Source: Parvularcula dongshanensis (lineage in GTDB: Bacteria; Pseudomonadota; Alphaproteobacteria; Caulobacterales; Parvularculaceae). Taken from it: DNA of 64,000 nucleotides. Position 1 is the stretch's first letter; every line of letters begins with the position of its first letter. The position numbers and the translations under genes are program-made. Below are positions 4,988-28,667 of this stretch, one piece after another. The DNA lies in the NCBI RefSeq assembly GCF_014199615.1, contig NZ_JACHOB010000004.1, forward strand, positions 124,001 through 188,000. The letters run 5' to 3'. Under the pieces are notes generated by a model that did not search any database, had not been told where the DNA came from, and was given only the letters and a program-made list of their open reading frames with translations.

Positions 4988-4997
4988 GCGCAGCGCC

Positions 4998-5015
4998 GCC
5001 CGGAACGTCCCGGGC
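4998..5015 (+). terminator. Short GC hairpin after tetR
   Basis: GCCCGG (4998-5003), a six-base loop AACGTC, then CCGGGC form a perfect 6-bp stem 11 bases after the tetR stop. There is no T-run, so it may only pause transcription or attenuate entry into the next gene at 5056. Confidence 0.3.
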
Positions 5016-5055
5016 CTGCACCTGTTCGGCCCGCAAGCTCCAAGGGCCCTTCACG

Positions 5056-6015: not shown

Positions 6016-6022
6016 GGCGGGC

Positions 6023-9276: not shown

Positions 9277-9295
9277 ACGGTCCGCAATTGACGCA

Positions 9296-11038: not shown

Positions 11039-13191
11039 GCGAGGAGGCGGACGTCAGCCAACCGCCCCGGCCGCCTGAATCTCCACTCGCCATGCCGCAC
11101 CAATCCTTGCGGGCGGCGCCGAAGACGGCCCGACCGCGAGCCACGTCCAAGGCGTGGCGAAAGGGCTTCGTCGGCGCGGTGTCCGTGGGCGTGACGACCT
11201 TCGCCTGGGGCGAGATGTACCTCGTCCTGAACGTCGGCGGGATGACGGCGCTCGAATGGGTGCTGCTCTGCGTCTTCTGCCTCAACCTCGCCTGGATCGC
11301 CTTCGCCTTCGGCAGCGCGACCGTCGGCTTCCTGGTCGCCGCCTGGCGCGAACTGCGCCCGCCCAAGCGGTGCGAGCACGAGTTGACGGGGCGCACGGCA
11401 CTCCTCTTCCCGATCTACAACGAGGACGTGGCGAGCGTTTACGCCGGGATCGAAGCGGCGGCGAAGGGCCTGCGCGAGACGGCACCGAACGCCTTCGAGG
11501 CGTTCATCCTCTCCGATACGACCGACCCCGAGGTGGCCCTCATCGAGGAGGAGGCGTTCTTCCGCCTACGCGAGCGGATCGGCGAGGGCTTCTGCGTCTG
11601 GTACCGGCGCCGACCGATCAACACGGCACGGAAGTCCGGCAACGTCGAGGACTTCGTCACCCGATGGGGCGGCCGTTACGATCACATGATCGTCTACGAT
11701 GCGGACAGCCACATCGAGACGGAGACGCTTCTGGAGCTGACGCGGCGCATGTCGGCCTCGCCCGATACGGGGCTGATCCAGACGATCCCGCAGCTGATCG
11801 GCGGCAAGACCCTCTTCGCGAGGACGCAGCAATTCGCCGCCGCCCTTTACGGTCCTTTCCTCGGCACGGGCGTCGCCTGGTGGGCGCAGGACGAGGGCAA
11901 TTTCTGGGGCCACAACGCGATCATCCGCACCCGAGCCTTCGCCGAGGCCGCAGGGCTTCCCACCCTGCCGGGCCGCGCGCCCTTCGGCGGCACCATCCTC
12001 AGCCACGACTTCGTCGAGGCCGCGCTGTTGCGCCGTGCGGGCTGGCGGGTGCGGATCGCGAGCGAGGTCGGCGGCTCCTTCGAGGAGTGCCCGCCGACGA
12101 TCATCGACCTTACGATCAGGGACCGGCGCTGGTGCCAGGGGAACCTCCAGCATGCGGGCGTCCTCCTGCGGGCGAAGAAGCTGACCTGGACGAGCCGCCT
12201 GCACCTCATGATCGGGGTGATGTCCTACCTCGCCTCGCCGATGTGGCTCCTCTTGATCCTCGTCGGCATGGGGTTGTCGCTTCAGGGCAAGTTCCTCGCG
12301 CCCGACTACTTCGGTTCGGACCGGGCGCTGTTCCCGGACTGGCCGGTCATCGACTCCGCCCGCGCCCTCCGCCTCTTCTTCCTGACGATCGCGATCCTCT
12401 TCGCGCCGAAGCTCTACGGACTGCTGATCGGCCTTCTGTCGAAGGACTGGCGGCGCAAGGTGGGCCCGATCCGCACCGTGCTCGGTGTCCTTGCCGAGAC
12501 CGTTATCTCGGCCCTCATCGCGCCGATCCTCATGGCCGCGCAGACCGGATCCGTCGTCTCGATCCTACGCGGCAAGGACACGGGGTGGTCGCCGCAGCAG
12601 CGCGGCGACGAAGGCTACCGCTTCGGCGACGTGATGCGGCGGCACGCGGGCGCCATGGTCCTGGGCGTTGCGCTGATGACGGCCGCGCTTCTGATCTCGC
12701 CGGTCTTCGCGGTTTGGCTCTCCCCTGCGGGCATCGGCATGGTCCTCGCCGGTCCTCTGTCCTGGTGGACGGGCTCGCTCGGTGCGGGGCAGGGCGCGAA
12801 GCGGGCAGGCCTGATGCTGACGCCGACGGAAGTCGCGCTGCCGGCGCCGTACACGGACTCACGTGCCGTGCGGTCCGCCTATGAAGGCCTCACAGCGCCG
12901 AGCTTCACCGAGGCGCTGACCGACGGCGCCTGGCAGAAGCGGCGCAAAGCCTTGCCGGACCCGCATTGGCCCCTCGCCCGGGGCGAGGTTCACTCCGCCC
13001 TCGCGACGGGGGCGGCGAAGGTCCTCAGCCATGCGAGCGAGACCGACCTCGAGAGCTTTCTTACGAAGGCGGAGCGAATGGCCCTCCTCGACTCGCCGAC
13101 CGAGCTATCGCGCGCTCGGCGGCGCGTGCGGGCCGCCCGCGCCGAGCGGACGAAAAAGCCCGCGCTGCGGATCGTGGGCGCTCAGGGCTAG
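11035..13191 (+). CDS. opgH: Glucans biosynthesis glucosyltransferase OpgH (MdoH)
   Basis: Inner-membrane family-2 glucosyltransferase that makes the OPG backbone from UDP-glucose. About 718 residues from the GTG at 11035 that overlaps the opgG stop; ATG 11092 (MPHQSLRAA) is an alternative. After two N-terminal transmembrane helices the catalytic domain shows FPIYNEDVASVYAGIEAA, the metal-binding DADSHIE, the acceptor-site HDFVEAALLRRAGW and the processivity signature RRWCQGNLQH (Q/RxxRW type). At least four further transmembrane helices follow. No opgC/opgB-type modification gene is nearby. It converges on the minus-strand glucosidase with interlocked stop codons (CTAG, 13188-13191). Confidence 0.95.
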   Translation: MSEEADVSQPPRPPESPLAMPHQSLRAAPKTARPRATSKAWRKGFVGAVSVGVTTFAWGEMYLVLNVGGMTALEWVLLCVFCLNLAWIAFAFGSATVGFLVAAWRELRPPKRCEHELTGRTALLFPIYNEDVASVYAGIEAAAKGLRETAPNAFEAFILSDTTDPEVALIEEEAFFRLRERIGEGFCVWYRRRPINTARKSGNVEDFVTRWGGRYDHMIVYDADSHIETETLLELTRRMSASPDTGLIQTIPQLIGGKTLFARTQQFAAALYGPFLGTGVAWWAQDEGNFWGHNAIIRTRAFAEAAGLPTLPGRAPFGGTILSHDFVEAALLRRAGWRVRIASEVGGSFEECPPTIIDLTIRDRRWCQGNLQHAGVLLRAKKLTWTSRLHLMIGVMSYLASPMWLLLILVGMGLSLQGKFLAPDYFGSDRALFPDWPVIDSARALRLFFLTIAILFAPKLYGLLIGLLSKDWRRKVGPIRTVLGVLAETVISALIAPILMAAQTGSVVSILRGKDTGWSPQQRGDEGYRFGDVMRRHAGAMVLGVALMTAALLISPVFAVWLSPAGIGMVLAGPLSWWTGSLGAGQGAKRAGLMLTPTEVALPAPYTDSRAVRSAYEGLTAPSFTEALTDGAWQKRRKALPDPHWPLARGEVHSALATGAAKVLSHASETDLESFLTKAERMALLDSPTELSRARRRVRAARAERTKKPALRIVGAQG

Positions 13192-14843: not shown

Positions 14844-16316
14844 TTGTACGACCTTCTCGTCATCGGCGGCGGCATAAACGGTGTCGGCGTGGCCCGGGAC
14901 GCCGCCGGGCGGGGCCTTCGCGTACTCCTTTGCGAGAGGGACGACCTCGCGAGCCACACCTCGTCGGCCTCGACCAAGCTCATCCATGGCGGCCTGCGCT
15001 ACCTCGAACATTACGAGTTCAAGCTGGTCCGGGAGTCGCTCGTCGAACGCGAGCGGCTCCTCGGCCTCGCGCCGCACATCATCTGGCCGCTTCGCTTCGT
15101 CCTGCCGCATCACAAGGGCCTGCGGCCGGCTTGGTTCCTTCGCCTCGGCCTCTTCCTCTACGATCACCTCGGCGGCCGGGAAGCCTTGCCGGGGACCCGG
15201 TCGGTCGACCTGACGGCGCCGCCCCATGCGGGCATCCTCGGCCGGGCCTACGAGAAGGGTTTCGAGTACTCCGACTGCTGGGTCGAAGACGCCCGTCTCG
15301 TCGTCCTGAGCGCGGTGGATGCGCAGGAGCGGGGGGCTGAGGTCCTGACCGGAACGGCATGCACCGGGCTGACCCGGCACGAGGACCGCTGGGATGCGGC
15401 GCTCACGAGCGCGGAGGGTTCAAGGGTCGTCGAGGCCAAAGCGGTCGTGAACGCCGCCGGGCCTTGGGTCGGCGAGGTCGCCGGGCTGGCCTTGCGCGGG
15501 CGGTCGAAGTCCTCGGTGCGCCTGGTCAAAGGCAGCCACGTCGTCGTGCCGAAACTCTATGAGGGCGGGCACGCCTACATCTTCCAGAACACCGACGACC
15601 GGATCGTCTTCGCGATCCCCTATGAGGACGACTTCACCCTGATCGGGACGACCGACGTGCCGCTCAATGACCCGAACGAAGCGGTGGCCGCGACCGACGA
15701 GGAGGTCGCCTACCTCTGCAAGCTGGCGAGTGACTACTTCGCGACCCCGGTCACGCCTGCGGACATCGTCTGGACCTATGCCGGCGTCCGGCCGCTCTTC
15801 GACGACGCCGAGGAGGACGCGTCCAAGGTGACACGCGACTACGAACTGGTCCTCGATCACGATGGAGGCGCACCGATCCTGTCTGTCTATGGCGGTAAGA
15901 TCACGACCTTCCGGCACCTCGCCGAGGACGCTCTGCGCGAGCTGGCAGACGTCTTCCCGCAGATGGGCGAGGCGTGGACGCAGGACGCGCCGTTGCCCGG
16001 CGGGGATCTTGGCAGCGGGTTCGACGCCTTCGCCGCCCGCTTCGCCGCGGCGCATGCTTGGCTGCCCGCGGCGCTCGCCCGTCGTCTGTGCCGAGCCTAC
16101 GGGACGAGGGCCGAACATGTGCTCGGCGAAGCGACGAGCCTTGCGGACCTTGGCGAGGCCTTCGCCGCCAGGCTGACGGAGGCTGAACTGCGCTACCTCG
16201 TCGAGGCGGAGTTCGCGCGGGGGCCGGACGACGTCCTGTGGCGCCGCTCCAAGCTCGGTCTGCACATGACGGAGGCGGAACGAGCGAGCGTCGCAGCCTG
16301 GTTCGACCGCCGCTAG
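14844..16316 (+). CDS. glpD: Aerobic glycerol-3-phosphate dehydrogenase
   Basis: FAD-dependent membrane-associated enzyme oxidising sn-glycerol-3-phosphate to dihydroxyacetone phosphate and feeding electrons to quinone. 490 residues, starting at TTG 14844 with AGGGAG upstream. The N-terminal FAD dinucleotide fold is YDLLVIGGGINGVGVARDAA; SHTSSASTKLIHGGLRYLE and WTYAGVRPLFDD are GlpD signatures; a C-terminal helical domain completes the normal length. No glpK, glpF or glpR is adjacent, so it is not in a classical glp operon. Its position beside opgGH and GH13 genes may be incidental, or may relate to glycerol-phosphate balance, since OPGs can carry phosphoglycerol. Stop codons interlock with the convergent tpsB gene (16313-16316). 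Confidence 0.95.
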   Translation: MYDLLVIGGGINGVGVARDAAGRGLRVLLCERDDLASHTSSASTKLIHGGLRYLEHYEFKLVRESLVERERLLGLAPHIIWPLRFVLPHHKGLRPAWFLRLGLFLYDHLGGREALPGTRSVDLTAPPHAGILGRAYEKGFEYSDCWVEDARLVVLSAVDAQERGAEVLTGTACTGLTRHEDRWDAALTSAEGSRVVEAKAVVNAAGPWVGEVAGLALRGRSKSSVRLVKGSHVVVPKLYEGGHAYIFQNTDDRIVFAIPYEDDFTLIGTTDVPLNDPNEAVAATDEEVAYLCKLASDYFATPVTPADIVWTYAGVRPLFDDAEEDASKVTRDYELVLDHDGGAPILSVYGGKITTFRHLAEDALRELADVFPQMGEAWTQDAPLPGGDLGSGFDAFAARFAAAHAWLPAALARRLCRAYGTRAEHVLGEATSLADLGEAFAARLTEAELRYLVEAEFARGPDDVLWRRSKLGLHMTEAERASVAAWFDRR

Positions 16317-17941
16317 CGCAGGAACGTCAGCTCGAAGCGGTGCCGGGCATGGCCGTCATCTTCGGTGTAGGGCGCGTCGCTCAGCGGCTGCGCCACTTCG
16401 TAAGCGAAGACGACATGTTCGCCTAATCCGATCCGCAAACCGCCGCCCGCCGAGAACAGGGTCTTGCCGTCGGCTCTGAAGTCCTGATCGTCGTTCCAGG
16501 TCGCCCCCGCATCCGCGTAGACGTAGGGTTCGATCCGAACCCGGCCGTCGTCGCGCTTCGTGGGAAGCCCGAGCTCGGCGTAGGCGGCGAGGCCGTCCTC
16601 ACCCAGGACCTCGCCGAAGTCGTAGCCGCGCCCGAAGTCGCCGCCGCCGATCGCGAACTCCTCTTGATAGACGACGGGATCGTCGGCGACTTGGAAGGTC
16701 GCGCCGAGTCCGATCGCCGCGCGGCCGAACCGTTGGCGCAGGACGCTGGACCCGCGCAGCGTGACGAAGCCGCCCTCCGCGTCGGGACGGCTGGAGTGCT
16801 CGGCGCTGCCGGTGTCGCCGACCGACAGGGTGAGGTCCGCCCGAAGCGCGCGCCCTCCGCCCGTGCCTTCGTAGACGAGGCCGCCACGCACCGCGCGCAT
16901 CTCGTCCTCGTAGAGCCGTTCGCCGTCCTCTTCCTCCGTCACGCGCGACGCCTCGACACTCGCGCTCCAGTAAAGGGCGCTGTCACGTCGAAGGCGGAGC
17001 GGCTGTCGCACACCGCCGACGATCTTGTTCATCGAACCATCGAGGTCGCGGTCGGGGAAGGCGCTGATGGGTGCGGTGGTCGACGCGGTGACGGCGACGA
17101 AGGGCCGTGCGCCGCCCTTGGTCGGGGCAGCGTCGTAGCGGACGACGCCGTAGCCGAGTTCGGAGGTCGCGGCGGGCTTGGTCATGAAGCCCAAGGATAG
17201 CCCGTCTCCGGGCGCGAAGAGGCTGTTCGCCTCGAGGCCGAGATAGGTCTTCACCGCCTCGCCGCGGCGCGTCCCCTTGTTCGTCGCGAAGAGGCGGCCA
17301 CCGAAGCGCTTCAGCCGGGCATCCACCTCGAGTGCGTACCGGTCCTCCGCGAGGCGGGCGGGGCGGACGGCGTCGATGACGAGGCCGGGCAGGCGGCGGG
17401 CCTGCTCGCTGGCGGCCTCCAGGTCTCGGGCTTGGGCCGGGGCCCCGGTGACGACCCGGGCGAAGGCGGCTTGCGCCGCGCCCGCGCCGGAGCCCTTGGC
17501 GTCGATGCGGACGACCTGGCCTTCGCTCAGCGCGATGCGGAGCGTGCCGCCCTCGATCGTCTGCGGCGGCAGGGCGGCCCGGGTGAGGTAGTAGCCGCGC
17601 GTCTGGTAGGCGGCGGACAGGGCGTCCGCCATCGCCTTGAGGTCACCGGTCTCAAGATCGCGCTTCTCATAGGCTTCGGTTACCGCCGCCAGTTCCGTCG
17701 CCGGAACGACGGTGTTGCCTTCGAAGGCGGCCTGCTCGAACCGGATCGACAGGGCGGAAGGCCTGCGCGAGCCCAAGCGGGAAGGGGGCGGGCTAGGCGC
17801 GTTGGCGGGCGCGGTCACGCGCGCGGCAACGAGGATACCGCTCTCTAGGGGCGTCTCGGCGAAGGTCGGCGCACTGTTGGCGAGGCCCACGCCCAGAAGC
17901 GCGACCGGTACCGTCCACTTTAAGAGAGATGGCCCACCCAT
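16313..17941 (-). CDS. TpsB/ShlB/FhaC/HecB-family outer-membrane secretion protein
   Basis: Omp85-superfamily transporter that normally exports a TpsA exoprotein in two-partner secretion. 542 residues with a signal peptide ending near NSAPTFAE. A POTRA domain follows (FEQAAFEGNTVVPATELAAV, TRGYYLTRAALPPQTIEGGT, residues roughly 65-150), then a 16-strand-barrel region. The family's barrel motif is clear in FAIGGGDFGRGYDFGEVLGE, the RGY loop-6 signature, followed by GLAAYAELGLP. The C-terminus FELTFLR departs from the usual terminal Phe. The gene is divergent from the FecR/solenoid-CHASE2 operon across a 137-bp gap. No gene with a hemagglutination-activity (TPS) domain is in the window, so its substrate is not obvious. 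Confidence 0.9.
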   Translation of the reverse strand: MGGPSLLKWTVPVALLGVGLANSAPTFAETPLESGILVAARVTAPANAPSPPPSRLGSRRPSALSIRFEQAAFEGNTVVPATELAAVTEAYEKRDLETGDLKAMADALSAAYQTRGYYLTRAALPPQTIEGGTLRIALSEGQVVRIDAKGSGAGAAQAAFARVVTGAPAQARDLEAASEQARRLPGLVIDAVRPARLAEDRYALEVDARLKRFGGRLFATNKGTRRGEAVKTYLGLEANSLFAPGDGLSLGFMTKPAATSELGYGVVRYDAAPTKGGARPFVAVTASTTAPISAFPDRDLDGSMNKIVGGVRQPLRLRRDSALYWSASVEASRVTEEEDGERLYEDEMRAVRGGLVYEGTGGGRALRADLTLSVGDTGSAEHSSRPDAEGGFVTLRGSSVLRQRFGRAAIGLGATFQVADDPVVYQEEFAIGGGDFGRGYDFGEVLGEDGLAAYAELGLPTKRDDGRVRIEPYVYADAGATWNDDQDFRADGKTLFSAGGGLRIGLGEHVVFAYEVAQPLSDAPYTEDDGHARHRFELTFLR

Positions 17942-18078
17942 ATCCAGCCGGTAGCGCGGGCCGAGTTAAGGCGAGCTTACAAGAGCTTGTCTAATTATGG
18001 TTTACGCTTGTTTACCTCGTTTCTTGTCCTTCCGTTCACGCGCTGGCGCGAAGTGGTCGTATTGGAGAGGATACCCGC
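17942..18078. promoter_or_regulatory. Divergent control region between tpsB-like and FecR-solenoid genes
   Basis: A 137-bp gap serving both directions, noticeably AT-richer than its surroundings. It holds TTAA-N7-TTAC at 17966-17980, one base from the CtrA consensus TTAA-N7-TTAA, and the direct repeat GTTTAC-GCTT-GTTTAC at 18000-18015. The ribosome site GGAGAGG (18064-18070) serves the plus-strand gene. Regulator identity is inference. Confidence 0.4.
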
Positions 18079-19893
18079 ATGCGCCCTTATGTAATTCTCG
18101 CACTCCTAATGAGTTTCACTCTGTTCTGCTTCGCCAATGCGCGAGCGGCGGAGCCGTGGACTCTCGTGGAGGCGGATGGGCGCGTGATGATCAGCGGTTC
18201 TCCGGCTACGAGCCCGGCGACCCTGCCTCAAGGCGCCTGGATCGAGACAGGGGAGGACGGTCGCGCCGTCCTCAACCGCGGCGAGCAGCGTATCGCGCTC
18301 GGACCGGGCACGCGCATCGCCTTGCCCGCAGAGACGCAAGTCGGGCACACCCGGGTCGATCAGGTCCGCGGCGAGGCGCGCTACACCGTCGACAAGCGCA
18401 GGGCACCGCACTTCGAAGTGCGCACCCCGCTGGTCGCCGCCGTCGTGAAGGGCACGCAGTTCACCGTGACGGCCGAGGGCGAGAGCCACTCGGTCTCCAC
18501 GCATGAGGGCCTCGTCGCCGTCAGCGCCGCGAGCGGCGGCGCACCGGCCATGGTCGGTGCGGGCCTGCGGGCGAGCGTGCGCCCCGGTAGCGGCGTCGTG
18601 GTCGAGAAGGCGCCGCCGCCGAAAGCCGCGGCGCCTGCCCGCAAGCGAGCTGTGCCGACGAAGGAGGATCAGACCGAGGACACCGAGAGCGACGCGCCCG
18701 ACGCCGAGGCGCCCCAGGTCGCCGAGACCGAGCCTGCGGTGAGCGCGCTCGCCGACACCGTGGTGACCGAAAGCGAAGCCGGTGCGCCGCCGAAGAAGGA
18801 CGAGCCGCCAGCGACGCAGGAACCTGCCGCCCCAGCGCCGGCGCCTTCGCCGAAACCCGAGCCGGAACCGCAGCCGGTACCCGGGGATACGGCGGAGCCG
18901 GAGGAACAGCCGGCGCCCGCGCCGCAGCCCGAACCCGCGCCTGAACCCGGGCCTGAAGCTGAGCCTGCGCCCGAGCCGGCCCCCGAAGCGGACGAAGAGC
19001 CTCAACCCGCGCCGCAAGAGCCCGCGCAGCCCGAAGAGGAGGACGGCGACGAACCCGACGCCGTTCCCGCGGAGGACGACGAGCACGATCACGACCATAA
19101 TGACGTCCGCGGCACGGACAACGACGTCGACGGCAAGAAGAACAAGGTCGACGGCGCGTCCAACAAGGTGACGGGCGACGACAACGAGGTTCGCGGAACC
19201 AGCAACACCCTCGTCGGCGACAAGAACAAGGTCGACGCGAGCTGGACGAAGGTGTCCGGCGACAAGAACAAGGTCAAAGGCGCCTGGATCGAGATCGACG
19301 GCCGGAAGAACGACGTAGAGGGACGCGACATCCGCGTGACCGGCGAGGACAACAAGGTCCGTGGCCTGAGCGTGACCGTGGCTGGCAACCGCAACGACGT
19401 CCAGTCGACCTTCGGCGTCTTCCGGATCCCCACCCTGATCGAAGGCGACCTCAACGTCGTCCGTGGCGGGGGCGCCAACACCATCGGCGGCAGCGAGAAC
19501 AAGCTGACCGGCTCTTACGGTACGATCTACGGAGACCGGAACGACGTCGAGGGCGACCATGCCGACGTGGAGGGGAGCGACAACCTCGTCAGGGGCGCGA
19601 ACGCCTTCGTCCGCGGCGTCTGGAACAACATCCGCGGAGACGGGAACCACGTCGAGGGCGACTACAACAAGGTCGTCGGCGACGACAACACGCTCTACGG
19701 CCACTACAACGACGTCGAGGGAAGCGGGAACGATGTGACCGGCGACCGGAACGTGGTCGTCGGCGACGACAACACGCTCTTCGGCAACCTCAACGAGGTC
19801 GACGGCAACCGCAACCTGGTCGTCGGAAACGGAAATCCGGTCCGGGCGAACGGCGGCATAGTCTACGGCGACGGGCCGAACGCGACGAAGTGA
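18079..19893 (+). CDS. Secreted FecR-domain protein with Pro/Glu-rich linker and heptad beta-solenoid repeats
   Basis: 604 residues, function unknown. Signal peptide MRPYVILALLMSFTLFCF with likely cleavage after ARAA (residue 24). Residues about 30-165 form a FecR-type domain (GARIALPAE-like GTRIALPAETQ, VKGTQFTVTAEGESHSVSTH, EGLVAVSA). Residues about 170-335 are a Pro/Glu/Ala linker like TonB-type periplasm-spanning stretches, ending in an acidic His-rich patch (DDEHDHDH). Residues 341-592 are 34 units of a seven-residue repeat N-x-V-x-G-x-x, predicted as a beta-solenoid. It has no sigma-factor partner, so it is not a classical FecR anti-sigma system. It overlaps the CHASE2 kinase gene by 4 nt (GTGA). 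Possible roles: a surface or periplasmic structural fibre, a ligand-sensing partner of the kinase, or the cargo of the divergent TpsB-like transporter. Confidence 0.85.
   Translation: MRPYVILALLMSFTLFCFANARAAEPWTLVEADGRVMISGSPATSPATLPQGAWIETGEDGRAVLNRGEQRIALGPGTRIALPAETQVGHTRVDQVRGEARYTVDKRRAPHFEVRTPLVAAVVKGTQFTVTAEGESHSVSTHEGLVAVSAASGGAPAMVGAGLRASVRPGSGVVVEKAPPPKAAAPARKRAVPTKEDQTEDTESDAPDAEAPQVAETEPAVSALADTVVTESEAGAPPKKDEPPATQEPAAPAPAPSPKPEPEPQPVPGDTAEPEEQPAPAPQPEPAPEPGPEAEPAPEPAPEADEEPQPAPQEPAQPEEEDGDEPDAVPAEDDEHDHDHNDVRGTDNDVDGKKNKVDGASNKVTGDDNEVRGTSNTLVGDKNKVDASWTKVSGDKNKVKGAWIEIDGRKNDVEGRDIRVTGEDNKVRGLSVTVAGNRNDVQSTFGVFRIPTLIEGDLNVVRGGGANTIGGSENKLTGSYGTIYGDRNDVEGDHADVEGSDNLVRGANAFVRGVWNNIRGDGNHVEGDYNKVVGDDNTLYGHYNDVEGSGNDVTGDRNVVVGDDNTLFGNLNEVDGNRNLVVGNGNPVRANGGIVYGDGPNATK
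19099..19854 (+). repeat. DNA encoding 34 heptad repeats (N-x-V-x-G-x-x)
   Basis: Residues 341-592 of the FecR protein. Fifteen units run without a slip (such as NDVRGTD, NKVDGAS, NKVTGDD), then a 13-residue insert GVFRIPTLIEGDL. Nineteen more units follow (such as NTLYGHY, NDVEGSG, NLVVGNG), the first with one extra residue. Position 1 is mostly Asn, position 3 a beta-branched or aliphatic residue, position 5 Gly. The code is degenerate at DNA level, so these are old protein repeats and not a recent tandem DNA expansion. Confidence 0.85.
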
Positions 19894-22124
19894 CGCCAAC
19901 CTTCCTCAGGTTCTCGAAGGCGTTGCCGGGCGCGGGATACCGCCCCGGCGACGCCGTGACCGCGCTTCTGGTTCTGAGCCTGCTCCTTCTCGGCTTGCAG
20001 ACGGGTCTGCTGGGGCGGCTGGACAACGCGCTGACGGATGCCCGCTTCACCCTCTCCCAAAGGCCGCCGACTGGCGAGCTCGTGGTCGTCGCGATCGATA
20101 CGAAGTCGCTGGCGGCCAACCCCGTTTGGCCGTGGCCCCGAGCGGAGTACGCTCGGCTCATCGACGTGCTGGACGAAGAGGGGGCGGCCGCGATCGGTTT
20201 CGACCTCGACTTCAGCGCCGCAGGGGCCTTCGGTACGGACCAGGCGCTCGCGGACGCGGTGATGGGCGCACGGGCAGAGGTCATGACCGCAGTGTTCCGC
20301 CAGCCCGTGGACGGTGTTCCGGGCATGATGGTCGAGATGCTGCCCAACACGAAGATCCGTTCGCACGTCACCCTCGCCTCAGTCGCCTATCCGACCAGCG
20401 CCAACGGCCTCGTCAGAATGCTGCCCGCCGCCGAGCCCTTCTCCTTCGGTCCCGTGCCGAGCATCGGTGCCCAGCTGTCCGGCGTCGCGCCGGCGGAGGC
20501 CGTAGCGCTCGACTTCGGCATCGATCTCGACGGCATCGTCACCTACTCCTTCTCGGACGTGCTCGCACGCCGCGTGCCCGCCGGCGCCTTTGCCGGGAAG
20601 AAGGTGTTGGTCGGGGCCACGGCGATCGAGCTTGGCGACGAGTTCTCTCTGCCGACCAAAGGTCTTTGGCCCGGCGTGTTCCTCAACGCTCTCGGCTACG
20701 AGACGCTCGCCCAGGGGCGCGCTTTGCGAACCGCGCCGCCCTGGACGACCCTTCTTCTCGTCGGCCTCGTCGTCGCAACCGGCGTTCATCCCCGGACGCG
20801 GCGGGACCTTCTGCCCTACGCGCTCGGGCTCGGGGTCATCGGGGCCGGTCTCTTCGGTCTGAGCCTCGTCCTGCACGAGGCGCTGGTGCTGCGCTTCGAC
20901 ATCGGCGCTCCCCTGCTCGCGCTCGTGTTCTCGGGCGGCTTCTGCCTCTTGCGCGAAGCCGAGCAGCAGGCGGGCACTCTGTTCCGTAACCAGATGATCA
21001 ACCAGGCGCAGCGCCTCCTCTTCGAGCGCCTCGTTCACGAGAGCCACGGCGGGATAATCACGCTGAACCGGTTCGGCGACGTCGAGCTGTGCAACCCGCA
21101 GGCGCGGAAGATGCTCGGCATCGCTTCGAACCCAGTGGGCAAGCCGGTCGGAATCGTCGCGCCCGCCCTCGCAGCCCACGTCCGCACGCCCGTCGAACCG
21201 ACCTCGCTGCGCACGGCCGAGATCGAGGTCGAGACCGAAGGCGAGGACGAGGTGAGCACGATCGAGGTCTCGATCAGTCGCCTCGAGATTCCACTCTCTG
21301 CCAGCCGGTTCGAACGCCGCCGCGAGCCGCGAGAGGTCACGCTGGTCTCGCTCTACGACGCGACGCCGGCGCGGCGAGCGGCCGAGGCCGAGCGTTTGGC
21401 GAAGGAAGAGCACGCCGCCGCGTCCGAAGCGAAGTCGCTGCTGATCGCGACCATGAGCCACGAACTCCGCACGCCGCTCAACCACATCATAGGCTTCGCC
21501 GAGCTGATCGCCGGCGAGATGATGGGTCCCGTCGGCACACCCGAATACACCGAGTATGCAGGCCATATCGGCACCGGCGGCAAGCGGCTTCTGAGCGTGG
21601 TCAATGACATGCTCCTGGCCGGTCAGCTGCAGTCGAACGAGATCGCGATCTACGAGGACGAGGCAGCCTTGGAGGGAATCCTGAACGAGGCGCTGGACGG
21701 CTTGTCCCGGGACCCAGCGCAGGTCGAGGTCGCGATCGCAGCGCACCGCGCGAGGATCGACGCCAAGCTCGTCGGCACGGCGGTGCGGCACCTCGTGGAC
21801 AACGCGCTCAAGTTCGGCGGCGGATCGGACGTCCGCGTCTCAGTGAACAATCGGGGCGACGAGCTTCGGCTCCGGGTCGAGGACGACGGACCGGGCGTGG
21901 ACCTCGAGAGGGCGGAGCTCACTTCGCTCTTCGTACAAGCCGACGGCACGTTGGCGCGGACGCAGGACGGGTGCGGCATCGGGCTCTTCCTCGTCGACGG
22001 CATCGCACGTCTTCACGGTGGCCGCCTGCGCCTCTTCTCCGCGCCCGGCCGCGGCTTCGCCGCGGAAGTCATCCTGCCAGGCCGCGCGATCGCGCCCCGC
22101 GCCGCCGGCCGCTTGGTCGCCTGA
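19890..22124 (+). CDS. CHASE2-domain sensor histidine kinase
   Basis: Membrane sensor kinase of 744 residues, start GTG 19890 overlapping the preceding stop. Layout: an N-terminal transmembrane helix (LLVLSLLLLGLQTGLLG); an extracytoplasmic CHASE2 domain (TDARFTLSQRPPTGELVVVA, GFDLDFS, KVLVGATAIELGDEFSLPT) to about residue 285; three closely spaced transmembrane helices; a PAS-like segment (GGIITLNRFGDVELCNPQAR). Next come HisKA with the phospho-acceptor His524 (MSHELRTPLNHIIGFAELI) and HATPase_c with N-box VDNALKFGG and G-boxes DDGPGVD and GCGIGLFLV. No receiver domain and no response-regulator gene is nearby. Coupling to the FecR-solenoid gene suggests the kinase reads the state of that protein. 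Confidence 0.93.
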   Translation: MTPTFLRFSKALPGAGYRPGDAVTALLVLSLLLLGLQTGLLGRLDNALTDARFTLSQRPPTGELVVVAIDTKSLAANPVWPWPRAEYARLIDVLDEEGAAAIGFDLDFSAAGAFGTDQALADAVMGARAEVMTAVFRQPVDGVPGMMVEMLPNTKIRSHVTLASVAYPTSANGLVRMLPAAEPFSFGPVPSIGAQLSGVAPAEAVALDFGIDLDGIVTYSFSDVLARRVPAGAFAGKKVLVGATAIELGDEFSLPTKGLWPGVFLNALGYETLAQGRALRTAPPWTTLLLVGLVVATGVHPRTRRDLLPYALGLGVIGAGLFGLSLVLHEALVLRFDIGAPLLALVFSGGFCLLREAEQQAGTLFRNQMINQAQRLLFERLVHESHGGIITLNRFGDVELCNPQARKMLGIASNPVGKPVGIVAPALAAHVRTPVEPTSLRTAEIEVETEGEDEVSTIEVSISRLEIPLSASRFERRREPREVTLVSLYDATPARRAAEAERLAKEEHAAASEAKSLLIATMSHELRTPLNHIIGFAELIAGEMMGPVGTPEYTEYAGHIGTGGKRLLSVVNDMLLAGQLQSNEIAIYEDEAALEGILNEALDGLSRDPAQVEVAIAAHRARIDAKLVGTAVRHLVDNALKFGGGSDVRVSVNNRGDELRLRVEDDGPGVDLERAELTSLFVQADGTLARTQDGCGIGLFLVDGIARLHGGRLRLFSAPGRGFAAEVILPGRAIAPRAAGRLVA

Positions 22125-22171: not shown

Positions 22172-22579
22172 ATGACCGTCCATCTCATGAAGGTCGCCGT
22201 CGGGTGCCCCGACGTGCAGACGCTGCAGTCGCGCCAGCGCCGCTTCGCCAAGAGCGGGGGCGGTATCGCGCACACGACGCGGATGTGGCCGAAGCGGGCG
22301 GAGGAGATCCTGGCGGGCGGCTCGCTCTACTGGGCCGTCGCGAAGTCGCTCTGCGTGCGGCAGGAGATTCTAGGCCTGGAGGCGGTGACGGTCGACGGCA
22401 CGCCGAAGTGCCGGATCAAGCTCGACGCAGCCCTCGTGCCCGTTCGGGCGATGCCGCGCCGACCGTTTCAGGGCTGGCGCTACCTCGAAACGTCCGACGC
22501 CCCTCCGGACCTGCCGAAGGGGCGAAGCGCGGACGAGGCCGCGCTTGATGCCATGCTCTTGGAGCTCGGCCTCATGTAG
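22172..22579 (+). CDS. DUF1489 family protein
   Basis: 135-residue soluble protein. MTVHLMKVAVGCPDVQTLQS and GGIAHTTRMWPKRAEEILAG match the alphaproteobacterial DUF1489 family, whose function is not established. ATG 22172 is chosen because the conserved sequence begins there and upstream in-frame sequence overlaps the kinase. It stands alone, 47 bp after the kinase and 16 bp before the convergent bactofilin gene. Confidence 0.88.
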   Translation: MTVHLMKVAVGCPDVQTLQSRQRRFAKSGGGIAHTTRMWPKRAEEILAGGSLYWAVAKSLCVRQEILGLEAVTVDGTPKCRIKLDAALVPVRAMPRRPFQGWRYLETSDAPPDLPKGRSADEAALDAMLLELGLM

Positions 22580-22595: not shown

Positions 22596-23096
22596 TCAGG
22601 CCTCTGCGGCGGCAGGGACCGCCGGTTTGCCATCCTTGCGCTTCGGTCCTTCGACCGCTGGGACCGTGGTCTCGCCGATCGGATCGTCGGCATGACGGAC
22701 GTTGCCCTCGAAGCGGGCGCCGACCTCGATCGACATGGCGTTGTGAACGATCTCGCCGCGGACGAGCGAGCCTGCCGCCAACTCGACGCGCTGCGCCCTG
22801 ATCGAGCCTTCGACCGTTCCGCAGACGCGGACGCTGATCGCGACGACCTGTCCTTCGATCCGTGCGCCCTCGCCGACGACGAGCCCCTTCGCGCGGAGGT
22901 CGCCTTCGAGAAGGCCGTCGAACTGGACCTCGCCTTCGGACTCAATCGTGCCGCGAATGACCACGTCGGCCGAGATCAGGGACGGCACGCCCTCGCGCGC
23001 GGTCTTCGGACGCGGCGCCGCGCGCTTCGCGGGCTCGGCGCTCGCCTCGAAGGTTTCCGTCAGTCCCAACTCGGTCGTCTTAGCTTTCGAAAACAT
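22596..23096 (-). CDS. Bactofilin family cytoskeletal protein
   Basis: Polymer-forming protein of 166 residues. A proline-rich basic N-terminus is followed by a right-handed beta-helix core from about residue 38 (SLISADVVIRGTIESEGEVQ through GARFEGNVRHADD), the bactofilin (DUF583) domain. Bactofilins make non-nucleotide filaments at the membrane and direct local peptidoglycan synthesis. It overlaps the upstream M23 peptidase gene by 17 nt, a conserved pairing in which the filament recruits the endopeptidase (for example BacA/LmdC in Hyphomonas, from memory). Confidence 0.94.
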   Translation of the reverse strand: MFSKAKTTELGLTETFEASAEPAKRAAPRPKTAREGVPSLISADVVIRGTIESEGEVQFDGLLEGDLRAKGLVVGEGARIEGQVVAISVRVCGTVEGSIRAQRVELAAGSLVRGEIVHNAMSIEVGARFEGNVRHADDPIGETTVPAVEGPKRKDGKPAVPAAAEA

Positions 23097-24447
23097 AGCG
23101 TCCCGCCTCGATGAACTTCAAAGGATCGACCTGTCGGCCGCGATAGTGGACCTCGTAGTGCACGTGGGTCCCCGTCGATCGGCCCGTGCTGCCCATTAGG
23201 CCGATGACGTCGTGCAGCTCGACCTTCTGGCCGGTGCGCACCTTAATGGCGTTCATGTGCCCGTAGCGGGTCTTGAAGCCGTTTCCGTGGTCGATCTCGA
23301 CGCAGCGGCCATAGCCGCCACGGACCCCGGCGAAGGTGACGCGGCCGGGTGCCGTCGCGAGGATCGGCGTGTTCGTCCGCGCGGCGAAGTCGAGGCCCTT
23401 GTGCTGCGCGCGCCGGTTCTTCTTCACCGGGTCCCAGCGCACGCCGAAGCGCGAGGTCATGCGGTGCCGGTCCTTGACCGGCGCGGAGAGCGGGATGACC
23501 TTGACCGCCTCGGTCAGGACGGCCGCCTCGCCGAGCGTGCGGGCGACACGGGCCGCGGTGCGAGTGTAGGGATCGCGGGGCAGGTCGTCGGCGGGAATGA
23601 GGGGGCCCCCCTGACCCGTGAAGGGTTCGGCCTCCCCAGCGGCCTCGTCTTTCGGACCGCGAATCAGGCTCGCGAGCAGAGGCGCCGACAGCGTCTCGGT
23701 CTGCGCATCGACCACACCGCTCATGTCGACGCCGGTATGACGCAGAACCTCGGCGAGCTCCTCGATGCGGATGCGCGTGTCTTCCTCGAGCGCACCCATC
23801 ATGGCGAGCTGGCGGGCGGAGAGGTCGGCGCTCTGAAGACGCATCCGCGAGAGGGCGGCGTCGTCGATCTCGCCGGTGACACGCATCTGGGAGAAGCGGG
23901 TGAGGGCGTCGCGGCGCAGGCTCGAGACGCGAGATTGGCGCGGCGTCGGCTCGCGGCCGATGGGGTCGACCATGACGCGGTTGCCCGACTTCATCGGCTG
24001 GCCACCCGGCGCGCCGGTCTCCGACAGCGTGTCGGATAGGCCCTGAAGGCGACCGTCGATCGCCCCTTTGTTGTCCATCAGGCCGCGGAGCGTGTCGGTC
24101 TGAGACCGCAGGTTCGAGATCGCCGCGTCGAACTCGCGGGCGTAGACGTAGTTCAGCGCGCTGACCTCGTCATAGGCCGTCTCCTGCGACTGCAGGCGGC
24201 GCTGGAAGGCGGCGCGCTCGTCGCGCCGCTGCTGCGCCTCGGCGATCTTGATCTGCTGCTCGAAGACGAAGTTGACGGTGGCGAAGGCGACCCACAGCAG
24301 GAAGGCGCCGAGGATCAGCGCCATCGCCATCTGAGTCTGGCTCGACAGCTTGACGAAGCGGACGACGCCGTCGCTCCGGTGGTAGATCTGGCGCTCCCGG
24401 AACGCGCGGCCCATGGCCCGTGCCATCCGGTTTTGCTGCCTTCCCAT
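23080..24447 (-). CDS. Membrane-anchored M23 (LytM-type) peptidoglycan endopeptidase
   Basis: 455 residues from ATG 24447, which has AAGGG upstream; a longer frame to 24552 lacks a ribosome site. A basic cytoplasmic tail precedes one transmembrane helix (MAMALILGAFLLWVAFATV), a long coiled-coil region rich in Gln/Arg/Glu, and a C-terminal M23 domain. Zinc ligands are visible in HKGLDFA (HxxxD) and THVHYEV (HxH). The intact motif indicates an active D,D-endopeptidase, unlike degenerate EnvC/NlpD-type activators. Cotranscribed and overlapping with bactofilin, it likely acts in localised wall growth or cell-shape control. Confidence 0.94.
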   Translation of the reverse strand: MGRQQNRMARAMGRAFRERQIYHRSDGVVRFVKLSSQTQMAMALILGAFLLWVAFATVNFVFEQQIKIAEAQQRRDERAAFQRRLQSQETAYDEVSALNYVYAREFDAAISNLRSQTDTLRGLMDNKGAIDGRLQGLSDTLSETGAPGGQPMKSGNRVMVDPIGREPTPRQSRVSSLRRDALTRFSQMRVTGEIDDAALSRMRLQSADLSARQLAMMGALEEDTRIRIEELAEVLRHTGVDMSGVVDAQTETLSAPLLASLIRGPKDEAAGEAEPFTGQGGPLIPADDLPRDPYTRTAARVARTLGEAAVLTEAVKVIPLSAPVKDRHRMTSRFGVRWDPVKKNRRAQHKGLDFAARTNTPILATAPGRVTFAGVRGGYGRCVEIDHGNGFKTRYGHMNAIKVRTGQKVELHDVIGLMGSTGRSTGTHVHYEVHYRGRQVDPLKFIEAGRYVFES

Positions 24448-24636
24448 TACTCGCCCTTCCGACAATAGCCGCCGGGCAGGCCCCGTGAGACCTCCCGCCG
24501 TATCAAGCCTCACCGAGCCGTGAGAGTGCACGAGGACCCGTCGGCTCTGCAAGCGTGACGGGAGGTGCGTACCGGAAAGTAATTAACGGGGCGCTCCTCC
24601 GTCCTCTTCGAGACGGTCCCGCCCGTTCAGCTTCCT

Positions 24637-25104: not shown

Positions 25105-25298
25105 GGGATCCTCCTGATGGTGTGGGCGCCTCGCTTAGCCAGAGGGTCTCCCGCCGGTCCAGATCGTAACCCGGCGCTTCCTTGCCCGCGCCGCGTACGC
25201 GCTCTTAACCTGCCGATGCCTAGGTGCGGGCAGCGGCGAAGGGCAGGGCGAGCTTGGGCGAGGTCGCGGAGCGCGGAGAGGCAAGACGGGGGCGGGGC

Positions 25299-28200
25299 GT
25301 GCGCGGCGCTGCGGCCCGCTGCGCCTGCGTGGCCACGAGCCTGACCTCGGGCCTTGCCCTCTTCCTCTACCTCGCCATCTGCTTCGGGGGCGTTTCGCTG
25401 GGGCCTTTCGAGCAGACGGCGGCACGGCTGCTCTCGGATCGCGCAGGCTTGAGGGAGATGACGCTCGACGGGCTGAAGCTTGCGCGGGCGCCGGACGGCG
25501 ACGCGCTGACCCTCTCCGCGAACGAGGTGAGCGCCGAAGGTGCGGACGGCGGCGTGGACCTGCCCGACCTCGCCCTGCGCCTCGCGCCCGGCGACGTCAT
25601 GCGGGGCCGGGCCGTACCGCGCCACGTGGCGCTGAGCGGCGCTTCGCTTGAGGTCGTGCGGACCGAACGCGGCTTCGCCATCAAGGGCGGCGGGGCGGGC
25701 GGTGGCCTCCTCCCCCTCCTGCGGCGGGCCGAGGCGGGCGGCTTCGAGGGCGTCGAGGCCACGGGCGTATCGCTTCGTTTCCGGGACGAGGTCGCGGACC
25801 TCTCGCTGCAGGCCGAAGGCGCGTCCGTCCTGATCGAGCCGACGCGGCTTGGCTACAAAGCCCGGCTCGCCCTCAGCATGGGCGAGGGACGGATCGAGGC
25901 GCAAGCGGCCTTCGACCTCGAGGCGGCGACGTTCGAGAGCGTGCTGACGCTGAACAGCGCGCCGCTCGGTGCGCTCCTTCCCTACGCGGCGAAGGGCGGG
26001 AAGGCCGCGACCTTGCCGCTCACTGGCGAGTTCCGCCTCGGCGGCGGCTTCCACCCCTCCGCCGTCAGCGGCGCGTTCGACCTTCGCACGCCGGGCGGCG
26101 TCGTCGAGCTCGGCCCCCGCAAGCTCGAGGTCGAGGCCGCGCAGCTTCGCGGCCGCTACGAGGGGGCGGACGCGCTCCTCGCGGTCGACGGTTTCGCCTT
26201 CGAGGCGGGCCGCAGCCGCGGCGCGCTCTCCGGCGAGGTCCGCCTCCTGCGCGGAGGGCGCCTGCCGGTCTCGCTTCGCAGCGAGGAGCTCGTCCTCGCC
26301 TTGCCCGGCTTCGAGGCGCCCTTGGCGTTCGGGGCGGTCGAGGTGACGGGCGGGTTCGAGCCTGCGTCCCGGCGCTTCGCCATGGACGAGGCCCGCCTCG
26401 CCCTTCGCGACGGGCCGGCGCTCGGCGGCCAGCTGGCGGTCGATCTGCCGAAAGGGGGAGACCGGATCGGGGTCGTCGGCGGGCTGTCGGCGGCCGGACC
26501 GCTGAGCCGGAAGGACGTTCTCGCGCTCTGGCCGACCGGCCTCGCGCCCGGCGCCCGCCGCTGGACGCAGACCCATGTCGAAGGCGGTCGCATCGAAGCG
26601 TTCGGCATCGACGTCGCCATCCCGCGCGGCCACCTGAACGCCGGCGGTCGCCTGACGCCGGAGATGCTCGACCTGCGCTTCGCGCTGAGAGACGGAACCA
26701 TTGCCTACCTCGACGGCATGCCGCCGGTCACGGAAGCGGCGGCCGAAGGGCACCTGACCGGGGGCAGCTTCGAGATCACTGCGACGAGCGGGCGGACAGG
26801 CGGGGCGGCGGTCGAGCGAGCGTCCTTCGCGCTGCCCCGCTTCGGCTCTCCCGCCGCGCCGGCCGAGATCGCCGTGTCTCTGCGCGGCGCGGCCCAAGAC
26901 CTCCTCGCGCTCGCCGACGCGGCGCCCTTCGGTTTCCTCGGCGCGGCGGGGCTGTCGCCGGACGATTTCGGCGGCGAGGGCCGCTTCGTGCTCAACGTGA
27001 CCCGGCCTTTGCGGGACGGCGTGACGCGGGACGAGATGAGCGTCGCTGGCGAGGGCACGTTCGAACGGGCAAGCCTGGACGGGCTGCCCGGGGGCTTCGA
27101 CCTCACGGCCGCGAACGGGACGGTGACGTTGTCGGACGAGGCCCTGGTCGTGGAAGGAGAAGCGCTCGCGCGGGGGGTACCTGCGACGGGACGCCTCGAG
27201 CGGCGCTTCGGTCCGGAGGCGCCGAGCCTGACGCTCGAAGCGGCGGCGGCGCTGACGCCCGCGAGCGGCGACGCGCTCGGTCTGCCGGTCCGCCGCTACG
27301 TCGCCGGCAGCGCGCCTTTGCGCTTCGCCATGGCGGGCGAGGACCGGTTCGAGAAGGCGTCGATCCGCGTCGACCTGACGCCCGCGGCGCTGCGCCTGCC
27401 AGACTTCGGCGTCGCCAAGGCGGCGGGCGCCCGGGGGCGTGCCGCGGTCGACCTCTACCTGCCGAAGGACGCTCCGCCGCGTGTCCAGATGCTGAAGCTC
27501 GTCACCGAGGACGTCCTCGTGGAGGGCAGCGCCCTTCTCGATGAGGCCGGGGGGCTCGTTCGTCTCGACCTGCCGCGGGTCTTCGTAGCGGGGCACGCCG
27601 ATCTCGCCGCGCGCCTCGCACGGGACGGCCGCAGCCTCGACGTCGACGTCACGGGTCGCTTCGCGGATGCAGTGCCGTTGATCGACCGTCTCTTCGCGGG
27701 CGGGGGCACGGGCGGAAGTGGCGAGGGCGGAGCAGCCGTCCCGATGACGCTGACGGCGGCGATCGACGAGGTGAAGGCGAAGGGCGGGGTCCGCTTGAAG
27801 GACGTGCGGGCGGCGGTCGAGCAGGACGAGGCGGGGCTGCGCCGCGTCGACTTCGAAAGCGAGTACGGCGGGGGCGGGGCGCTGCGGCTCTCGCTCGGCG
27901 CGGACGCGCTCGGCGTCGGCCAGAAGCTCTCTCTGACGACCGACAGCACGGGCGACCTCGTCGATGCCCTCTTCGGTATCTCGTCTCTCACCGGCGGCAG
28001 CGGGCGTCTCGACGCGACGGTGATCGAGGGCGGTCCCGTCGCGGGCACCTTCGCGGCGGACGCGCTCACGCTGCGCGACGCGCCGGTCGTCGCCCGCCTC
28101 TTGTCGATCGGGTCGCTCGACGGCCTCGCGAACGTGCTGTCGGGGGAGGGGCTCTACTTCGACCGCCTGCGCGGCGCGGTGACCCTCGAGGACGGCGTGC

Positions 28201-28667
28201 TCGGCCTTCAGGACGCCCGGCTGACGGGCTCAGCGCTCGGGCTCTCGGCGAACGGCGCGGTGGATCTGTCGGATCGGGAGTTTGACCTGTCGGGCGCCGT
28301 CGCCCCCGCCTACGGCGTCAACTCCTTCTTGGGCGCCATTCCGCTCCTAGGCGACCTCCTCGTCAGCCGGGAGGGCGAGGGGGTGGTCGCCTTCGCCTAT
28401 GGGGTCGAGGGGCCAATCGGCAGCCCGACCATCTCCGTCAACACGCTGTCCGCGCTGACGCCCGGCATCTTCCGCCGCTTGTTCGAGCCCGTGCGGGACC
28501 GACCTTCGGTCGAGCAGCTGCTCGCCCGCGCACAGGAGGAGGCGCGGCTGCGCGAGGACCGGGAGACCGCGGCCAGCGCCGAGGCGCTGACCGAAGCGGA
28601 GGGCGAGGAACGCCGCCTGCACGCCCGGCCGCCGGGCCGAAGCGGCACCGGGCCGGGCGGGCGGTGA
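25299..28667 (+). CDS. AsmA/YhdP-like envelope protein (DUF3971 and AsmA C-terminal regions)
   Basis: Very large inner-membrane-anchored periplasmic protein of about 1,122 residues. One N-terminal transmembrane helix (SGLALFLYLAICFGGVSLG) is followed by long beta-rich repetitive sequence typical of the AsmA clan; GGFEGVEATGVSLRFRDEVA-type and C-terminal VDLSDREFDLSGAVAPAYG, SFLGAIPLLGDLLVSREGEG match the YhdP/AsmA C-terminal region. Members form hydrophobic-groove bridges for phospholipid transport to the outer membrane. GTG 25299 is chosen, just before the anchor; GTG 25224 would add 25 Arg/Ala-rich residues with no ribosome site. A 976-codon antisense frame is a GC-skew artefact. A VTT-domain membrane gene follows 61 bp downstream. 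Confidence 0.86.
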   Translation: MRGAAARCACVATSLTSGLALFLYLAICFGGVSLGPFEQTAARLLSDRAGLREMTLDGLKLARAPDGDALTLSANEVSAEGADGGVDLPDLALRLAPGDVMRGRAVPRHVALSGASLEVVRTERGFAIKGGGAGGGLLPLLRRAEAGGFEGVEATGVSLRFRDEVADLSLQAEGASVLIEPTRLGYKARLALSMGEGRIEAQAAFDLEAATFESVLTLNSAPLGALLPYAAKGGKAATLPLTGEFRLGGGFHPSAVSGAFDLRTPGGVVELGPRKLEVEAAQLRGRYEGADALLAVDGFAFEAGRSRGALSGEVRLLRGGRLPVSLRSEELVLALPGFEAPLAFGAVEVTGGFEPASRRFAMDEARLALRDGPALGGQLAVDLPKGGDRIGVVGGLSAAGPLSRKDVLALWPTGLAPGARRWTQTHVEGGRIEAFGIDVAIPRGHLNAGGRLTPEMLDLRFALRDGTIAYLDGMPPVTEAAAEGHLTGGSFEITATSGRTGGAAVERASFALPRFGSPAAPAEIAVSLRGAAQDLLALADAAPFGFLGAAGLSPDDFGGEGRFVLNVTRPLRDGVTRDEMSVAGEGTFERASLDGLPGGFDLTAANGTVTLSDEALVVEGEALARGVPATGRLERRFGPEAPSLTLEAAAALTPASGDALGLPVRRYVAGSAPLRFAMAGEDRFEKASIRVDLTPAALRLPDFGVAKAAGARGRAAVDLYLPKDAPPRVQMLKLVTEDVLVEGSALLDEAGGLVRLDLPRVFVAGHADLAARLARDGRSLDVDVTGRFADAVPLIDRLFAGGGTGGSGEGGAAVPMTLTAAIDEVKAKGGVRLKDVRAAVEQDEAGLRRVDFESEYGGGGALRLSLGADALGVGQKLSLTTDSTGDLVDALFGISSLTGGSGRLDATVIEGGPVAGTFAADALTLRDAPVVARLLSIGSLDGLANVLSGEGLYFDRLRGAVTLEDGVLGLQDARLTGSALGLSANGAVDLSDREFDLSGAVAPAYGVNSFLGAIPLLGDLLVSREGEGVVAFAYGVEGPIGSPTISVNTLSALTPGIFRRLFEPVRDRPSVEQLLARAQEEARLREDRETAASAEALTEAEGEERRLHARPPGRSGTGPGGR

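Follow-up and report, generated by a model that had tools for sequence, protein, structure and literature searches.

What does a TpsB-type outer-membrane transporter export when no protein with a two-partner secretion (TPS) domain is found in the genome that encodes it? The question is raised by a 64,000-nucleotide stretch of Parvularcula dongshanensis DNA (assembly GCF_014199615.1, contig NZ_JACHOB010000004.1, positions 124,001 to 188,000; hereafter the window, whose numbering is used unless a locus or contig is named). Here the gene of a TpsB/ShlB-type transporter (542 amino acids; 16313-17941, minus strand) diverges from that of a repetitive FecR-domain protein (604 amino acids; 18079-19893, plus strand), which is followed by the gene of a CHASE2 sensor histidine kinase (744 amino acids; 19890-22124, plus strand). 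We show that a distinct clade of TpsBs is inherited together with a FecR protein and a CHASE2 receptor and does not stand beside TPS-domain partners, and that the trio is a real conserved module. Its joint inheritance, despite a putative client without the usual export tag, suggests an undescribed export-and-sensing device.

A preliminary description of this DNA had named the three genes, a 137-bp divergent control region between the start codons of TpsB and FecR (17942-18078) and a 4-nt overlap between the FecR and kinase genes. Open reading frames (ORFs) and Pfam matches confirm all of these with their coordinates, the overlap being the GTGA at 19890-19893 that is common to the FecR stop codon and the GTG start codon of the kinase.

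A conserved three-gene module

A search of 61 genomes of the order with the TpsB protein gave matches in 18, and 25 places besides that of the window were mapped. A profile built from 22 module TpsBs and run over a collection of genome contigs (84,980 species) yielded 67 named loci; a genome scan with the single TpsB protein as query had returned no relatives. As the preliminary description had proposed, the three genes belong together: far from never travelling as a group, they are all present in 56 of the 67 loci. TpsB and FecR adjoin and diverge in every one of the 62 named loci that hold both, and the side taken by CHASE2 varies (FecR's side in 35 of the 56 full loci, the far side of TpsB in 21). 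Written with initials and strands, the gene order is 'C- F- T+' in 34 full loci, 'F- T+ C+' in 20, and 'C+ F- T+' and 'F- T+ C-' in one each. Where FecR and CHASE2 share a strand, their ORFs overlap by 4 nt in 13 of 46 pairs, which supports an operon.

The module occurs in Parvularcula, Marinicaulis, Kiloniellaceae, Phenylobacterium, Caulobacter, Hwanghaeella, Rhodospirillaceae, many Sphingomonas, Sphingobium and a record named Microvirga; in Brevundimonas and Novosphingobium, TpsB and FecR are seen before the contig ends. That these are chance neighbours of unrelated function is a notion of practically negligible probability; it is refuted by the persistence of the module, with its genes rearranged, in several alphaproteobacterial groups, and is contrary to the linkage counts, the exclusion of TPS domains and the TpsB tree given below. 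Outside the order, class-level scans of 240 genomes each, with CHASE2 taken from the best-scoring matches listed, place POTRA_2 and CHASE2 within 3 kb of each other in at least three further genomes (G199, G391 and G412), as judged by these two profiles only.

Eleven of the 67 loci are incomplete. Six have TpsB and FecR (five of them cut by a contig end), one has TpsB and CHASE2 (cut), and four have TpsB alone, one of these being a cut fragment; the uncut lone TpsBs (L090, L099 and L106) are ordinary TpsBs, each with a TPS-domain protein directly downstream. Variation in copy number was also seen. Locus L079 carries two tandem FecR proteins (4118-5269 and 5556-6704) beside one TpsB and one CHASE2 gene, and genome G027 apparently holds two copies of the trio (L032; L031/L064), the second split over two contig ends. 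Genome G028 has a TpsB-FecR pair without an adjoining CHASE2 gene (L030/L070); a FecR-CHASE2 pair on another of its small contigs (L063) runs up to the contig edge.

A TpsB clade apart from TPS-domain proteins

The transporter of the window is a TpsB by its Pfam matches to POTRA_2 (amino acids 72-141; 17519-17728, minus strand), ShlB (the barrel match, amino acids 414-503; 16433-16702, minus strand) and Omp85, with POTRA_2 at 66.1 bits against a curated cut-off of 24 (E 2.5e-18) and ShlB at 30.9 against 22.7 (E 2.5e-07). Against CdiB (6wim) the family profile gives an alignment across its positions 28-451 (E 3.5e-35), and in a 22-row alignment G437 and R438 of the GR[GA]Y motif are invariant and Y440 nearly so.

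The observation that this TpsB lacks a TPS-domain partner, made at first for the window, now extends to the whole genome: the TPS profile (PF05860), with which we looked for a genuine TpsA encoded elsewhere, has no match anywhere in the 3.13 Mb, and such a partner was thereby ruled out. The search works, since 25 genomes out of 180 from the order give a match, 23 of them above the cut-off. Nor does the FecR protein carry a TPS domain, Pfam giving FecR and LbR_Ice_bind only. Other generic profiles run over the same 180 genomes match in 72 (CHASE2), 47 (POTRA_2), 10 (LbR_Ice_bind, 7 over the cut-off) and 110 (FecR, with individual places given in part). The 69 POTRA_2 genes in these genomes divide into 18 with CHASE2 no more than 5 kb away, 28 with a TPS domain no more than 25 kb away and 23 with neither partner; not one gene has both (Fisher p 1.3e-05, the genomes not being independent). 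A FecR gene is present too in all 18 of the first group, the module TpsBs of the order, none of which has a TPS domain within 25 kb; the group with neither partner includes two module genes at contig ends and one TpsB-FecR locus without CHASE2. Of the 19 module genomes of the order, one of which is counted by its contig ends, 11 have a single POTRA_2 gene and no TPS-domain match; the window's genome is one of these 11.

The same division appears in the history of the transporter. In a tree of 92 of the 103 TpsBs (duplicates and short pieces removed), one branch separates the 75 that are linked to FecR or CHASE2 from 17 others, with a Shimodaira-Hasegawa-like approximate likelihood ratio test (SH-aLRT) value of 99, and a single label change explains the distribution; it should be noted that the tree was built by a quick method and that some long branches meet in its outer part. 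A TPS-domain ORF lies in the fetched flanks of 11 of the 17 unlinked TpsBs, at a distance of 15-17 kb L044 and L048 show a TPS match below the cut-off, and in the fetched flanks of L041, L043, L049 and L051 neither a TPS-domain nor a FecR protein was found. More distant TpsBs often adjoin TPS-domain proteins; the closer ones diverge from a FecR gene that is followed by CHASE2, and none of the 11 TPS-domain ORFs in the scanned loci stands in a FecR-linked locus. In the same bacterial family, short TpsA-like proteins (504-520 amino acids) with a TPS domain were seen beside their TpsB at L038:4951-6468, L039:7652-9214 and L040:10770-12284.

Could the module TpsB nevertheless export another, unrecognised client, so that the FecR-CHASE2 pair merely regulates that export? 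PF05860 might miss a TPS domain that has diverged strongly, and a client gene at a great distance would escape notice. We consider this very unlikely, as FecR is the constant divergent neighbour of TpsB and, among 2304 ORFs of at least 100 amino acids in the fetched flanks of the 56 full loci, no ORF outside the trio is common to more than 12 loci. Two ORFs that recurred in 33 and 34 loci, and were considered as another conserved neighbour that might be the client, proved to be CHASE2 receptor matches; 4 loci were left after their removal.

A constant FecR domain with an exchangeable passenger

The FecR protein of the window begins with a Sec-type signal peptide (predicted by eye, ending ARA before AEPW; 18079-18147), followed on the plus strand by the FecR domain region as modelled (amino acids 24-198; 18148-18672), a Pro/Glu/Ala-rich linker of 132 residues (amino acids 199-330; 18673-19068) and a heptad N-x-V-x-G beta-roll (amino acids 331-604; 19069-19890). 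The Pro/Glu linker of the preliminary description is borne out. The Pfam match to FecR (PF04773) spans amino acids 55-146 at 44.3 bits against a cut-off of 24 (E 2.4e-11), and FecR matches all 72 module proteins scanned (of 73, one duplicate having been removed). In one analysis 70 of 85 FecR regions were used, after removal of duplicates, near-duplicates (by judgement), one short row and one masked row.

Evidence for the beta-roll comes from several sides. LbR_Ice_bind (PF21300, 'grass antifreeze beta roll') matches at 81.9 bits against 30 (E 3.7e-23), self-identity reaches 0.33 at lags 7 and 14 with a maximum of 0.17 in 1000 shuffles, and the sequence matches the ryegrass structure 3ult (E 8.3e-10). 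The structure model of the solenoid (predicted local distance difference test, pLDDT, 85.6) has no PDB fold match at E 0.001 or below, and 3ult is absent among the 50 matches listed. The roll is acidic, with a net charge of -18. The solenoid to which the preliminary description gave a defining part is present in this protein, but the Pfam roll is found in only 7 of the 72 FecR proteins (Pentapeptide_2 in 2); in an eighth case, the cut piece L031, the roll is encoded on a separate contig (L064). The heptad roll was for this reason ruled out as the core of the system; it is lineage-specific, and the constant part of the putative client is the FecR domain.

The passengers differ by lineage, and their repeats are of many kinds unrelated to one another. 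Besides the heptad roll of Parvularcula and near kin, there are Gly/Asn-rich passengers, 14-residue GVDLGLDVGADAGD repeats, PGVPSVPG repeats, Ser/Thr-rich passengers and the Ala/Lys/Asp-rich ones of Sphingomonas, and the residues after the FecR domain number from about 120 to over 700. Between domain and passenger, the motif [LYFIV]xxx[ST]xG[LVI][LVIA] occurs in 63 of 68 proteins without a roll (e.g. L119, L052 and L120), with 1.3 of 68 expected by shuffling, and in none of 7 with a roll; it was devised after the sequences had been seen and is therefore a description, not a blind test. Cysteine is absent from all 37,195 residues of 77 FecR proteins when counting begins 25 residues inside the profile match (with a cruder cut, some ORFs had a few Cys in an N-terminal extension), compared with 356 in 53,419 residues of the CHASE2 proteins and 13 in 39,900 of TpsB. 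The Cys-free composition fits an exported protein, though it partly reflects low complexity. By sequence, then, the layout of signal peptide, constant domain and variable, repetitive, Cys-free passenger is TpsA-like.

Two other identities were considered for this protein. A trimeric autotransporter was rejected, the sequence matches to UspA1 and BpaC being weak and no such anchor being found in Pfam. Most relatives have no roll, and ice binding was rejected on that ground as the module's main function; in P. dongshanensis itself the roll may still bind ice in view of the PF21300 and 3ult matches, and the missing TxT is no argument against it, because the ryegrass protein is not Thr-rich either, according to the available part of PMC6834126. 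A second LbR_Ice_bind match in the same genome (C1:801000-808000, L065) lies in a 919-amino-acid frame that by eye has a YadA-type head-repeat look and whose C-terminal part looks out of frame.

The lengths of the passengers and the search for anchoring domains bear on another explanation, in which the module is an envelope strain gauge: the FecR protein would be held by CHASE2 in the inner membrane and, through its long flexible passenger, by TpsB in the outer membrane, so that the receptor reads the spacing of the envelope or damage to it. LysM and STN have no match in the 72 module FecR proteins at E 0.01, and a published FecR/CHASE2 pair mostly carries LysM (PMC5192318, as far as its available text goes). 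We examined 16 CHASE2 places outside the module, a number that excludes a 17th region, the window's own locus; a FecR-like ORF occurs in five of the fetched stretches (L134, L135, L136, L141 and L146). In two of these FecR stands directly beside CHASE2 with no TpsB in the fetched stretch: on the same strand in L135, whose FecR protein matches LysM weakly, below the cut-off, and in this resembles the published pair of Burkholderia, and tail to tail in L134, whose FecR protein is short and by eye has no LysM. A FecR-CHASE2 neighbourhood thus exists without TpsB, and not every such FecR protein shows LysM. The lack of LysM in the TpsB-linked proteins, the match in L135 and the freely swapped passengers would suit a gauge; the wide range of lengths makes them poor material for one, no anchoring motif was identified, and L134 speaks against it as well. 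We regard the gauge, which would be a TpsB-anchored counterpart of the published, peptidoglycan-anchored LysM-FecR/CHASE2 pair, as quite improbable.

Receptor output and distance correlations

The kinase of the window matches CHASE2 (PF05226; amino acids 28-296; 19971-20777) at 119.8 bits against 26.3 (E 1.9e-34), together with HisKA (amino acids 514-582; 21429-21635) and HATPase_c (amino acids 624-730; 21759-22079), all on the plus strand. All 64 module receptors scanned match CHASE2; the list has 69, of which the last five were omitted, two of them matching EAL in another scan. HisKA and HATPase_c were found in 29 of the 64, EAL in 35, GGDEF in 15 and a weak receiver domain in 3, the Pfam figures for HisKA, HATPase_c and EAL being counts without member lists. 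By motif, none of 56 receptors has both kinase and EAL, and 3 have neither. The coupled CHASE2 kinase of the preliminary description accordingly holds at the window locus but is not constant among its relatives, and the 35 EAL proteins rule out histidine-kinase output as an essential feature.

Over 68 loci, the partial distance correlation is 0.55 between FecR and TpsB (bootstrap 5-95% 0.48-0.61), 0.52 between FecR and CHASE2 (0.46-0.57) and 0.34 between TpsB and CHASE2 (0.27-0.41), which is weak evidence that points to FecR as the hub. The correlation of FecR with both partners would also suit a relay from barrel to receptor without any export, in which TpsB is an outer-membrane sensor like FecA or PupB, FecR a periplasmic messenger that touches it, CHASE2 the receiver in the inner membrane and the repeats a spacer. 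FecR-type domains do bind small periplasmic domains of outer-membrane barrels, as in the PupR CCSSD and PupB NTSD (PMC7186176, available part), and the FecR-domain model (pLDDT 92) matches by fold 4m0h (1.4e-07), 4m0n and the PupR CCSSD, 6ovk (1.2e-06). The STN subdomain, on which binding by PupR depends, is, however, matched in none of the 72 proteins, TpsBs are described as translocases in the accessible portion of PMC4104836, and long, hypervariable, low-complexity passengers look more like surface-exposed parts than like parts of a relay. We judge such a relay unlikely.

A candidate export-and-sensing module

The explanation that we favour, and to which we would give an even chance of being right, is a TPS-like module for export and sensing in which the FecR protein is the client of TpsB and CHASE2 reads its FecR domain. 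The FecR protein would stand in for TpsA; after Sec export its FecR domain, which sits directly behind the signal peptide in the position of a TPS domain, would stay in or cross the periplasm, and TpsB would carry the Cys-free, repetitive C-terminal passenger to the cell surface. In P. dongshanensis this passenger would be the heptad beta-roll on its Pro/Glu stalk. The CHASE2 receptor in the inner membrane may recognise the FecR domain and so report a client that is waiting, in transit or anchored, and its output, histidine-kinase signalling here and a cyclic di-GMP (c-di-GMP)-related EAL protein in many relatives, may adjust the production of surface matrix. Since pairs of FecR and CHASE2 have been published without TpsB, FecR is plausibly what CHASE2 senses. 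A narrower proposal, which we advance tentatively and rate somewhat below an even chance, is that FecR has replaced the export-recognition domain of the client and both addresses the passenger to the TpsB pore and informs CHASE2 of its export. The preliminary description had spoken of a sensory or surface-assembly module; joint inheritance supports the module itself, and export and sensing are steps that we continue to infer.

Several observations weigh against the favoured explanation. At one locus that is not cut (L030, which is also L070), TpsB and FecR occur with no CHASE2 nearby, and the fraction of full trios is biased upward because the 67 loci were found with a profile of module TpsBs, a bias from which the order-level POTRA_2, CHASE2 and TPS counts are free. 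A TPS match exists elsewhere in 3 of the 19 module genomes: G054, and G004 and G007 with matches below the cut-off. In all three the contig with the TPS match also has a second POTRA_2 gene. The 50 listed fold matches of the FecR-domain model include no TPS domain; as the fold is that of periplasmic signalling domains, POTRA could recognise it only through a new interface. The Ala/Lys/Asp-rich passengers of Sphingomonas look helical by composition, unlike the beta-helices of known TpsAs. The correlation evidence is weak because shared ancestry was only partly removed, and FecR distances track the barrel part of TpsB (partial correlation 0.52) better than its N-terminal POTRA part (0.32), which makes POTRA a less likely docking site for FecR.

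If the module nevertheless works as we propose, it would provide a TpsB exporter that dispenses with the TPS domain, and a direct route by which the cell passes the state of its surface matrix, as to export or assembly, into kinase or c-di-GMP signalling. Secretion would be coupled to signalling through one adaptor, with passenger and output freely exchanged. The joint inheritance of CHASE2, FecR and an outer-membrane pore in any case names a testable ligand and a testable client.

Genomic surroundings

The trio is flanked on one side by a gene of the FAD-dependent glycerol-phosphate oxidase type and on the other by genes for a DUF1489 protein and a bactofilin. Past the DUF1489 gene (22172-22579), which follows the kinase, the bactofilin and M23 peptidase genes adjoin (22596-24552, minus strand). 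Elsewhere in the window are MdoG and then a glycosyl transferase (9245-13191, plus strand), a periplasmic glucan pair in which we take the transferase, from the pairing, to be MdoH-like; a large YhdP-type protein (25224-28667, plus strand); and an HWE histidine kinase (53069-54052, minus strand). Rfam and tRNA scans of the window gave no matches.

Relation to known systems

The published sources compared here were available in part, and what is said of them is limited to those parts. A close relative in architecture is two-partner secretion (type Vb; FHA/FhaC, CdiA/CdiB; PMC5422565), which likewise joins a TpsB with POTRA_2 and ShlB barrel to an adjoining partner made up of a signal peptide, a conserved domain at the N-terminus and repeats towards the C-terminus. 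The partner in the trio has FecR and no TPS domain, the locus includes CHASE2 and the genes are divergent; the words FecR and histidine kinase are absent from the available text of this review.

The FecA/FecR and PupB/PupR systems (PMC7186176) share a FecR-type all-beta periplasmic domain, an outer-membrane barrel partner and readout at the inner membrane. The all-beta subdomain of PupR is a twisted, beta-solenoid-like motif that, together with the STN subdomain, binds the small periplasmic domain of the transducer (PMC7186176). The trio differs in having no anti-sigma part and a CHASE2 receptor instead. As the preliminary description had observed, the classical FecR partners, an extracytoplasmic function (ECF) sigma factor and a TonB receptor, are absent: none of the genome's 6 sigma-70 region 2 matches and none of its 27 TonB-receptor plug matches lies inside the window. 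For the passenger of P. dongshanensis the closest likeness is the ice recrystallisation inhibition protein of Lolium perenne (3ult; PMC6834126), an xxNxVxG heptad beta-roll with polar variable positions, from which the present roll differs in being bacterial, fused to FecR and acidic.

Pairs of FecR and CHASE2 are known from two further settings. The BiofilmReg operon of Burkholderia (PMC5192318) consists of a response regulator, a LysM-FecR protein, a CHASE2 histidine kinase and DUF4136, and so shares with the trio a FecR-domain protein beside a CHASE2 kinase; it has LysM and a response regulator where the trio has TpsB, no LysM and a repetitive passenger. The words hemolysin, secretion and ShlB are absent from the available main text of that paper, which in 2016 called the signal of the CHASE2 sensor domain unknown, and no response regulator gene is among the flanking genes of the trio in the window. 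A cluster in Campylobacterota (PMC9239204) combines a CHASE2 adenylate cyclase with a FecR-domain outer membrane protein, a phosphodiesterase and a TPR protein; it shares receptor and FecR protein with the trio and differs in its cyclase output, no TpsB being mentioned in the part of the text available. Among the open-licence full texts listed by our searches we found no publication that describes TpsB, FecR and CHASE2 together. The earlier statement that no system of this composition has been described hence holds for the combination with TpsB only, since FecR and CHASE2 without it are already in print (PMC5192318, PMC9239204).

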